Positions 47,480 through 49,745 of a stretch of 64,000 nt of DNA are shown piece by piece. The stretch comes from Mitsuaria chitosanitabida ATCC BAA-476 = NBRC 102408 (GTDB taxonomy: Bacteria > Pseudomonadota > Gammaproteobacteria > Burkholderiales > Burkholderiaceae_C): the NCBI RefSeq assembly GCF_001598255.1, contig NZ_BCYP01000021.1, forward strand, positions 62,001 to 126,000, in the 5' to 3' direction. The notes under the pieces are model-generated. The model was not told the origin of the DNA and searched no databases. It was given only the letters and a program-made list of their open reading frames with translations. Position 1 is the first letter of the stretch. Each line of letters begins with the position of its first letter. The translations under genes and the position numbers were made by a program.

Positions 47480-48481
47480 ATGATCCCCACCGACGAGGAC
47501 CGCCGCCGCTTCCTCCTGCAGACCGCCGCGCTCGGCGCCGCGGGAGCCTCCCTAGGCACCGCGCTGCCCGCCTTCGCGCAGACCACCTGGCCCTCGCGCA
47601 ACGTGCGCCTGGTCGTGCCCTTCGCCCCCGGCGGCAGCAGCGAGATCGTCGCGCGCGCCACCGCGTCGGAGTTGTCCAAGACGCTGGGCCAGTCGGTCTA
47701 TGTGGACAACAAGCCGGGCGGCGGCGGCAACATCGCCATGGGCGAGGTGGCGCGATCGGAGGACCAGCACACGCTGATCCTCGGCCACATCGGCACGCTC
47801 GCGGTGAACCCCTACATCTACGACAAGCTGCCCTACGACCCCAACCGCGATTTCAAGCCCATCACGCTGCTGGCCAAGGTGCCTTCGCTCTACGTCGTCC
47901 ATCCGGACGTGCCGGCGCGCAACTTGAAGGAATGGGTGGCGCTGGTGCGCAAGAACCCGGGCAAGTTCAGCTACGGTTCCGCGGGCAACGGCAGCGCCGG
48001 CCACCTCGCGATGGAGTACCTCAAGATGGTCGCCGACCTGTACATCCTGCATGTGCCCTATCGCGGCACCGGTCCGCAGCTGACGGACCTGCTGGCGGGA
48101 CGGCTGGAGGCGGCCTCGGTGGGTGCGCCGGCCATCATCCAGTTCATCAAGGCGGGCAAGCTGCGCTGCATCGCCACCGGCTCCAAGGAGCGGCTGCCCC
48201 AGCTGCCCGACGTGCCGACGGTGGCGGAGCAGGGCTTCCCGGGCTTCGAGATGACGCAGTGGTATGGCCTGTGCGCGCCCGCTAACCTGGCGCAGCCGGC
48301 GGTGGACAAGCTGGCGGTGGAGTCGGTCAAGGCGATCCGCTCGCCCGCGGCGCGGGAGCGCCTGAGCCACGATGCGGCCGAGGCCGTGGGCAGCACGCCG
48401 GCGCAGTTCGCGGCCTTCATCGCACAGGAGCAGCAACGCTGGAAGGCGGTCGTGGCGCGCGCCAAGATCAAGCCCGATTGA
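47480..48481 (+). CDS. Bug-family tripartite tricarboxylate binding protein
   Basis: The 333-aa periplasmic protein has a Tat-like signal (RRRFLLQTAALGAAGASLGTALPAFA). The Bug/TctC blocks VPFAPGGSSEIVAR, VDNKPGGGGNIAMGEVA and SAGNGSAGHLAMEYLK follow. This large betaproteobacterial family binds carboxylates, often without a dedicated TctAB permease nearby; none is seen here. An inverted repeat follows the stop. Confidence 0.94.
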   Translation: MIPTDEDRRRFLLQTAALGAAGASLGTALPAFAQTTWPSRNVRLVVPFAPGGSSEIVARATASELSKTLGQSVYVDNKPGGGGNIAMGEVARSEDQHTLILGHIGTLAVNPYIYDKLPYDPNRDFKPITLLAKVPSLYVVHPDVPARNLKEWVALVRKNPGKFSYGSAGNGSAGHLAMEYLKMVADLYILHVPYRGTGPQLTDLLAGRLEAASVGAPAIIQFIKAGKLRCIATGSKERLPQLPDVPTVAEQGFPGFEMTQWYGLCAPANLAQPAVDKLAVESVKAIRSPAARERLSHDAAEAVGSTPAQFAAFIAQEQQRWKAVVARAKIKPD

Positions 48482-48713: not shown

Positions 48714-48902
48714 TTACCAGGTGCCCTTCGGCGTGGGTTCCATGGAGTCCGCGGCCGTGGCGACCAGGGCGGAAGCGTCGCCGCCCACCAGCCAGGTTCC
48801 CTTGGGGGTGCCGCCGCCGACGAATTGCAGGTCCTCGAGGTCCAGTTCGACCAGACCTTGTTCAACGGTGTTCGCGGCGACGGTGTTCGATTGGGCGTTC
48901 AT
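48714..48902 (-). CDS. Double-glycine-leader peptide with terminal TPKGTW repeats
   Basis: The 62-aa peptide has a leader that ends in VELDLEDLQFVGGG, a match to GG-type leaders cleaved by C39 peptidases. The predicted ~31-residue core starts and ends with TPKGTW. The two repeat copies use different synonymous codons at three of six positions, so the repeat is kept at protein level. CTGGAG lies before the ATG. A lux-box-like site lies about 82 bases upstream, and a LuxR-type regulator is the preceding gene. No modification enzyme or C39 exporter is adjacent. Confidence 0.72.
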   Translation of the reverse strand: MNAQSNTVAANTVEQGLVELDLEDLQFVGGGTPKGTWLVGGDASALVATAADSMEPTPKGTW

Positions 48903-48983
48903 GAGAGGCTCCAGATTCGGATGACGGCCAGCGGAAGCGCTGAGCACGGAACGAATTGAAGCAGCCCGGGGTGGGAGCTTGTA

Positions 48984-49001
48984 ACTGTCAGCTCTTACAG
49001 T
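48984..49001 (-). promoter_or_regulatory. Lux-box-like site upstream of the GG peptide
   Basis: ACTGTCAGCTCTTACAGT has the CTGT-N8-ACAG arrangement of lux boxes, with seven of nine mirrored positions paired. On the minus strand a TTCAAT-like -10 follows at a distance that puts the box near -45, as expected for LuxR-type activation. Confidence 0.65.
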
Positions 49002-49028
49002 GTTTCAGGCCGCCGCGACCGGGCAGCA

Positions 49029-49745
49029 TCAGCGAATCAAGCCCAGCCGGAGCGCCTTGAGCACGGCCTGGTGCTTGTTCGTGCAGCCGAGCTTGTGCAT
49101 CGCGTTGTTGATGTGCAGCACGGCGGTGCGCTCGGTGATGCTGAGGATGGCGCCGACTTCCCAGGCGGTCTTGCCTTCCATCGTCCAGTGCAGGCACTCG
49201 AGCTCGCGCGGCGTGAGCCGCGGCGCGTCGATCTCGACCGGCGTCGAGGGCAGCAGCAGGCGCATGGCCGAATCCACCGCGTGCACGGCGAACAGCTGCA
49301 GGTCCGCGACCATGCGCGTCAGCGTGATCGGGTTGGACGGGAGCATCTGGTCGCGGTTCACGCCCAGCACGAAGTGGCGCCCCTCGGGCAGGTGCAGCGC
49401 CAGCGAGATCCCCACCTTGTAGCCGAACGGCGCCTGCGCTTCCCAGAGCTCGGGCGCGTCGTTCTTCACGTAGGTCTGCTGGTTCCAGACGATGGGCACG
49501 CTCTGCTTCTTGCAGTGCTGCATCACCGGATCGCGCTTGCCCAGGCGGGGGTCGTTGAAGATGTCGGAGAAGCCGTCGGGCGCGTTCTCCACCGCGATGA
49601 AGTCGGAGCTGCCGATGGCGCGATCGACGACCAGGATGGCGGAAAAGCGCTCGAACTCCAGTCCGTGCGCGAAGCGCGTGATCTCGCTACGGAACTCGTC
49701 CGTGGAGCGAGCCTCCAACACTGACTGATAACCGCCTTGCAGCAT
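49029..49745 (-). CDS. LuxR-type transcriptional regulator (autoinducer-binding fold + HTH)
   Basis: The 238-aa protein has an N-terminal autoinducer-binding domain and a C-terminal LuxR helix-turn-helix (LTPRELECLHWTMEGKTAWEVGAILSITERTAVLHINNAMHKLG). The conserved DPV (RDPVMQHC) and VW of the ligand pocket are kept. The usual Trp/Tyr pair just before DPV is not evident, so the ligand may not be a standard acyl-homoserine lactone. No luxI is in view, so it is a solo. The gene lies directly upstream of the GG peptide on the same strand. The start was placed at the ATG before GGYQSVLEARST. Confidence 0.9.
   Translation of the reverse strand: MLQGGYQSVLEARSTDEFRSEITRFAHGLEFERFSAILVVDRAIGSSDFIAVENAPDGFSDIFNDPRLGKRDPVMQHCKKQSVPIVWNQQTYVKNDAPELWEAQAPFGYKVGISLALHLPEGRHFVLGVNRDQMLPSNPITLTRMVADLQLFAVHAVDSAMRLLLPSTPVEIDAPRLTPRELECLHWTMEGKTAWEVGAILSITERTAVLHINNAMHKLGCTNKHQAVLKALRLGLIR

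Follow-up and report, generated by a model that had tools for sequence, protein, structure and literature searches.

The window analysed here, a stretch of 64,000 nucleotides, contains a LuxR-type regulator gene (luxR), a gene for a short peptide downstream of it on the same strand, and a small gene divergent from luxR (Table 1). The positions given for luxR and for the 62-aa peptide in the original prediction were confirmed. The precursor reads MNAQSN...DLEDLQFVGGG-TPKGTW...TPKGTW, and codon comparison bore out the claim that its core starts and ends with TPKGTW, the two copies differing by synonymous codons only (ACC/ACG, CCC/CCG and GGA/GGC). The leader, ELDLEDLQFVGGG, has the L-12, L-7, V/I-4 and GG of double-glycine (GG) leaders, and the consensus of the aligned precursors of the family is L/I-12, L-7, V/I-4, G-2 and G/A-1. 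Comparison of the precursor with Pfam and NCBIfam models gave zero matches.

Table 1. Features of the luxR–peptide locus and its surroundings in the window
Feature	Position	Strand	Remarks
Substrate-binding-protein-like gene	47500-48481	+	Read from the sequence; outside the system; occupies the usual place of hlyD and the C39 exporter gene
62-aa double-glycine precursor gene	48714-48902	-	Stop codon included; present in 16/16 genus genomes
Motif copy 2, TPKGTW	48717-48734	-	C-terminal
Motif copy 1, TPKGTW	48792-48809	-	Immediately after GGG
Leader up to GGG	48810-48902	-	Conserved ELD..L..VGGG
Extended -10, TGCTTCAAT	48955-48963	-	Placed by eye; one base further from the box than in most relatives
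lux-type box, CTGTAAGAGCTGACAG (CTGT-N8-ACAG)	48985-49000	-	Between luxR and the peptide gene
LuxR-type regulator gene luxR	49029-49745	-	PF03472 and PF00196 domain matches
RsaM-like (DUF4902-related) gene, 123 aa	49927-50298	+	Divergent from luxR; conserved beside luxR

The small ORF is a real gene under protein-level constraint. A tblastn search with the peptide matched 15 of the 16 genus genomes at E ≤ 0.01, all 15 with two identical copies of (T/A)PKGTW, and the sixteenth (G008, locus L137) carries APTKGW twice, with the pentamer PTKGW. Across the two pentamers, pairwise comparison of 15 Roseateles genomes gave 193 synonymous and 0 nonsynonymous codon differences, and the 14 codons before the core gave 458 synonymous and 304 nonsynonymous ones; the precursors for this count were picked by their PKGTW codons, and all 15 tblastn matches carried both copies anyway. 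The alignment of leaders and cores suggested along with the original prediction showed that the leader and the motif are conserved, the spacer being free in sequence and length. The peptide was found on 11 named genus contigs, some of them metagenome bins; a plasmid-borne origin was considered, and a plasmid search with the peptide gave zero matches. Conservation in the genus, linkage to luxR and the codon constraint rule out a chance or non-coding ORF, and neither of the two weaknesses named in advance, absence of the ORF beside the regulator in relatives or lack of constraint on its protein, was observed.

The luxR product (P0002) matched PF03472 (E 5.9e-21, 75 bits) and PF00196 (E 9e-16, 57.7 bits) in a Pfam scan; having both the autoinducer-binding domain and the GerE/LuxR helix-turn-helix, it belongs to the LuxR-type quorum-sensing regulators. 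Its start is the M of MLQGGYQSVLEA, a start position kept among the relatives listed. The closest PDB sequences are QscR and LasR, and the AlphaFold model is poor (pLDDT 59). Alignment to LasR agrees with the earlier remark that the usual Trp and Tyr before DPV are absent: F59 and F63 replace W57 and Y61 in TraR numbering (LasR W60 and Y64). D72, P73, W87 and G112 are retained, as are E181, L185 and G191, the last three read from the alignment. The region of W57 and Y61 in the AHL-type pocket holds the lactone, so the replacements alter the pocket at the lactone site, which fits a different ligand. Nine residues (W57, Y61, D70, P71, W85, G113, E178, L182 and G188) are given as invariant in AHL-type LuxR proteins in the accessible part of PMC4338825, and the LuxR described here departs from this set at F59 and F63.

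At E ≤ 0.1, a peptide-profile search of 399 family genomes picked out 62, a good many probably by chance. Outside the genus, a homologous luxR on the same strand immediately precedes 24 of the 26 best peptide-profile loci; the remaining two (L050 and L052) look like chance matches. The LuxR group itself, with the sister clade included, is present at E ≤ 1e-65 in 102 of the 399 family genomes and in 38 of 141 genera. One hundred LuxR regions were examined, 99 from among the family matches and one order-level match, and LuxR genes scoring at least 345 with at least 400 bases downstream were regarded as strong, the score limit having been set after the list was seen. An ORF ending in P, two to four residues and W follows 84 of 94 strong LuxR genes on the same strand; these genomes represent one species each but are related, so the counts are not independent. 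The search for LuxR genes followed by such a small ORF, proposed earlier, thus succeeded at 69 of 79 strong loci once the 15 genus loci fetched with the peptide were set aside, but with a motif wider than PKGTW. The background for this ending is 33 of 6281 ORF ends, and among LuxR genes below score 345 the ORF was found in 9 of 34.

In seven of the ten strong exceptions (L093, L102, L109, L114, L115, L132 and L135) there is a GG precursor, but its motif does not reach the C-terminal end or lacks W. Two more (L128 and L131) are tandem luxR copies, and downstream of L107 no precursor was visible. At L142, L122, L128, L129 and L131, luxR occurs in tandem, three to five genes in a row with the peptide-linked copy among them; inspection of downstream ORFs revealed no recognisable peptide belonging to the extra copies. 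Several LuxR relatives outside both the strong group and the sister clade also have no such peptide downstream.

Beyond the family, the LuxR group was detected at E ≤ 1e-55 in one genome of another family among 300 genomes of the order. This sole match (L168, genome G520) is without a recognisable peptide ORF or box. A profile of the sister LuxR proteins run against 369 class genomes at E ≤ 1e-50 returned the source genome only; both limits would miss remoter homologues. Wide horizontal spread was rejected, as the LuxR group occurs in the family and hardly outside it in these two sets.

The CTGT-N8-ACAG site predicted upstream of a plausible -10 was located together with an extended -10. The pattern occurs once in the 64-kb window with 0.57 occurrences expected by chance, so what is significant is the conservation of the box in relatives and not the box by itself. 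An exact copy stands between luxR and the peptide gene in 78 of 95 strong loci, and a copy with one mismatch in 13. Aligned sites read CTGTAAGAG(T/C)TGACAGTTAC, followed after about 14 variable bases by CTGCTNNAAT, with little variation in length, and in relatives TGNTNNAAT stands at a fixed spacing from the box. The core AAGAG(T/C)TG and its distance from the -10 hardly vary, and no good -35 is visible in the alignment. The fixed spacing puts the box centre near -43, the position of activated lux boxes. A generic sigma-70 scan gave zero promoters in this stretch of the window, in line with a weak -35.

A search for the box with one mismatch allowed in 24 chosen genomes found exactly one in 15, two to five in eight and none in G075; a backwards control pattern occurred once in total across the 24. 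The source genome has one exact site; with three mismatches, the longer pattern occurs there three times, and the control gives four. One-mismatch boxes precede TonB-dependent receptor genes in two genomes (L216:1554-3017 and L221:1584-3017); such receptors are possible importers or box targets, and two genomes are too few to claim a wider regulon. An SBP_bac_3 gene (L222:1499-2323) lies behind another one-mismatch box, with a similar box in the sister genome G196 (contig C7). In L205 and L218, CTGTAAGGCCTGACAG stands near position 1500, beside a gene judged dinB-like from its sequence; the site is likely a LexA box and shows the likeness of LexA and lux-type boxes.

Downstream of the peptide gene and on the same strand, hlyD was found in 64 of 77 relatives, and a C39 exporter gene is encoded with the peptide in 63 of the 77 but not in the source genome; domains were confirmed by scan for two HlyD proteins and one C39 exporter. 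Clustering of the neighbours, few of which are annotated, identified HlyD and the C39 exporter as the only recurrent same-strand ones, the annotated subset across loci comprising RsaM-like, ABC-2, HlyD, C39, MnmG and epimerase. In class I loci with a readable precursor, a GG/GA site goes with an exporter in 63 cases and without one in eight, and the precursors lacking the site (L095, L120, L127, L136 and L147) have an exporter in none of five, seven rows of this table having been regrouped by eye. The hypergeometric chance of the association is 7e-5, an indicative value since the loci are related.

Ten of the 16 genus genomes have a linked HlyD; the source genome (G000), G001, G004, G010, G014 and G015 have none beside the peptide. 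A search for a C39 exporter homologue within the window revealed only a distant ABC ATPase. The source genome has unlinked C39 exporters on contigs C1 and C23, which share 54% and 47% identity with a linked exporter, and two further, weaker C39 matches. The C1 exporter is accompanied by HlyD, and no GG peptide was found nearby. The C1 HlyD was considered as part of a relocated exporter and rejected: its closer relatives (64–67%) occur in four genus genomes that keep the linked HlyD too, which makes it a separate line and not a moved copy. Beside the C23 exporter lie six small GG-leader ORFs with GGP(Q/E)V.ND motifs, some doubled (L174:9774-10770); they probably represent another peptide family of the same organism.

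All 11 named genus loci retain the gene divergent from luxR, as do 78 of the 80 other loci and, in the sister set, 27 of 33. In every one of those 78 other loci it is upstream of luxR and on the opposite strand. A profile of 14 members had a single PDB match, 4o2h (BCAM1869), at E 0.013. Twelve of the 14 aligned relatives matched PF16245/DUF4902 at E ≤ 0.5, the best at 3.8e-5, and two inspected scores were below the 25-bit cut-off; the window protein itself gave no match to PF16245, and its AlphaFold model is poor (pLDDT 36). With caution, the gene may be called RsaM-like. According to the accessible part of PMC10710839, DUF4902 is the domain of RsaM, which regulates AHL quorum sensing; a type 6 arrangement, with rsaM divergent from a luxR solo, is reported there from Pelomonas, Kinneretia, Albitalea, Xenophilus and Thauera.

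PKGTW is one form of a broader motif family, with TPKGTW, APKNTW and TPRGGW among the natural peptides of different species: 39 C-terminal pentamers were counted among 87 precursors with a P-x3-W unit, and 36 among the 82 with a strong LuxR. Multiple copies were flagged in 38 of 93 precursors and, among these, identical copies in 32. Inspection by eye showed that in three of the six non-identical rows a spurious unit before the start codon had been counted, which makes L078 and L123 single-copy and L092 identical; after correction, the pentamers are identical within 33 of 36 multi-copy precursors and differ in L090, L095 and L105. The number of copies reaches five in L099 and four in L103, L104 and L112. 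Copies identical within a species and varied between species are expected of a specific ligand, and not of a structural repeat or a bacteriocin. Across 41 independent sister pairs, a change of motif brought no extra divergence of the ligand domain over the DNA-binding domain, so receptor–ligand co-evolution was not demonstrated: the mean divergences of the ligand and DNA-binding domains were 0.07 and 0.03 in 21 same-motif pairs and 0.30 and 0.12 in 20 different-motif pairs, with the lowest distance bin, distorted by partial alignments (e.g., L142/L146), left out.

LuxR homologues scoring 225–300 carry tiny leaderless ORFs of 9–24 aa with ends like [LF]PRxG(W/F/G), for example MICLPRVGW, MSQAAIAVRTSFPRTGW and MNPIAVIASQRDFPRTGGW. 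A tight W-ending pattern found them at 9 of 20 such loci, control windows matching in 4 of 2900 cases; the contrast was weak under a looser pattern (12 of 34 loci versus 112 of 780 controls). In a second sister sample the tight pattern matched 0 of 15, the ends being LPRNGG, FPRVGF, LPYTGG and similar ones. Once the second sample had been seen, a broader pattern was drawn up; it matched 10 of 15 there, 9 of 37 in the first sample, where many LuxR genes do not belong to the clade, and 11 of 1154 controls. A single clade of 27 in the LuxR tree (support 0.93) takes in 25 mini-ORF loci, 19 found by pattern and six near-misses taken by eye. At the place of the box, 23 of these 25 loci have CTR-N10-YAG (CTA-N10-TAG in 17), and CTGT-N8-ACAG occurs in none of the 25; mononucleotide shuffles gave 9.5% for CTR-N10-YAG and 1.6% for CTA-N10-TAG. 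An exporter was found within 6 kb in 0 of 21 loci with a best LuxR score of 225 to 345.

It is likely that the locus encodes a LuxR-type quorum-sensing circuit whose autoinducer would be a gene-encoded, exported peptide instead of an AHL. The claim of a quorum-type regulator driving a short exported peptide is supported by the linkage to luxR, the near-invariant box, the GG leader, the HlyD and C39 genes and the RsaM-like gene. In such a circuit, as the conserved anatomy suggests, LuxR would activate the precursor promoter via the lux-type box. A C39 peptidase-containing exporter with an HlyD adaptor would cut after GG and secrete the core, a step well supported by the linkage in relatives; in the species of the window, a non-adjacent exporter would have to act for secretion to occur. 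The concerted, species-specific conservation points to the core or the repeated end motif (T/A)PKGTW as the putative active, mature signal. The signal would then re-enter the cell by an importer and bind to the autoinducer domain instead of an AHL; the peptide-bound LuxR would increase expression of its signal gene and, in most relatives, of the export operon as well. The divergent RsaM-like protein may, judging by its family, temper the loop.

On balance, it also seems probable that these loci form a class of Gram-negative quorum sensing in which LuxR receptors have evolved from AHL to self-encoded PxxxW pheromones. Such a class would comprise a GG/C39 branch, with up to five tandem copies, and a leaderless branch of 9–24 aa, with species specificity residing in the five-residue motif.

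It is unlikely that LuxR instead senses an AHL, made by the cell itself or by its neighbours, and switches on an exported antimicrobial or effector peptide as an output. The GG leader and the C39 exporter do make up a bacteriocin-type export system, but the conserved part of the core comprises only 5–6 residues, repeated and identical within and not between species, and among the few annotated neighbours, where HlyD and C39 recur, no immunity gene was seen. The autoinducer domain retains D72, P73, W87 and G112, yet W57 and Y61 are replaced. AHL-sensing LuxR solos are known (PMC10134790, accessible part). Against this reading, the sister clade has its mini-ORFs of 9–24 aa, and in 15 of 24 genomes the sole box is that of the peptide promoter, so that an AHL would control little else through the box. 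The choice between a signal and a bacteriocin had been left undecided in the original prediction: a signal appears the better supported of the two, since the motif is tiny, repeated, concerted and species-variable and, in the sister clade, lies within mini-ORFs of 9–24 aa.

Arrest-type leader peptides, which would stall ribosomes and tune downstream genes with no secreted product, could be suspected since many of the ORFs are very short and the conserved motif lies right at the stop codon. This is very improbable, as the leaders have a GG consensus that is associated with the C39 exporter, the motif is also found directly after GG and may be repeated identically in tandem, as many as five times within a precursor (L099), and seven strong-class precursors have it away from the stop or without W. 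About as little credit can be given to a multi-core RiPP pathway with LuxR as its ordinary regulator, in which the repeats would be cores cyclised or cross-linked through Lys/Trp before export: repeated short Trp-ending cores do resemble multi-core precursors, but there is no modifying enzyme among the annotated neighbours, and the recurrent same-strand genes are those of HlyD and the C39 exporter. As a variant, an unlinked enzyme may modify the signal. Least probable of all is a LexA (SOS) box in a damage-induced operon with LuxR as a mere neighbour. CTGT-N8-ACAG is also the LexA half-site pattern, and box-like sites lie near a dinB-like gene in L205 and L218, but the AAGAG(T/C)TG core and its -10 spacing are near-invariant with no good -35 in the alignment, as for an activator site. 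In the sister clade the same place is taken by CTR-N10-YAG, so the kind of box follows the LuxR clade, which favours LuxR over LexA.

The peptide-signal reading recalls several known systems. Gram-positive pheromones of the ComC/ComAB type share the GG leader, the C39 exporter and a peptide under positive feedback; their receptor is a histidine kinase, whereas here it would be of LuxR type and in Gram-negatives. In the RRNPP systems (Rgg/SHP, PlcR/PapR and ComR/XIP), a tiny peptide gene likewise lies beside a cytoplasmic receptor-regulator and the active part is a C-terminal fragment, and the leaderless hydrophobic mini-ORFs of the sister clade resemble SHPs; however, RRNPP receptors are built of TPR repeats, a fold unrelated to the LuxR autoinducer domain found here. 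The rsaM-associated LuxI/LuxR systems of Burkholderiales have the same LuxR domains, a lux-type box in the activated position, a positive-feedback layout and an RsaM-like gene beside luxR. Unlike in those systems, luxR is followed here by a peptide gene, usually with an exporter, and W57 and Y61 are replaced; a PF00765 (luxI) search of the source genome gave zero matches, but the control also matched nowhere. The word 'peptide' is absent from the accessible main text of the RsaM review (PMC10710839). The PipR/OryR solos are similar in that a LuxR homologue answers peptide-like compounds needing active import, but PipR adjoins peptidases and a peptide importer and answers plant or medium compounds, with no self-encoded peptide gene described in the accessible part of PMC4981722. 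A flanking proline iminopeptidase and a peptide importer mark the PipR/OryR group. The ligand of PipR is listed as an ethanolamine derivative in the accessible part of PMC10134790, and its residue changes, W57M and Y61W according to that of PMC4338825, differ from the F and F found here. Among the matches listed in searches of open-licence papers there was no LuxR–peptide system of this kind, and PKGTW strings occurred in zero papers.

In textbooks, the LuxR receptors of Gram-negatives sense AHLs, and for many LuxR solos the ligand is not known. For the group described here, which is found in about a quarter of the searched family genomes and thus in many soil and water relatives of Roseateles, the likely ligand is readable from the adjacent gene. 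If the proposed circuit is true, it would provide a genetically encodable, species-specific signal for Gram-negatives and dozens of natural receptor–ligand pairs for studies of specificity, and it may explain the rsaM-luxR solo loci of the Roseateles/Pelomonas/Kinneretia group.
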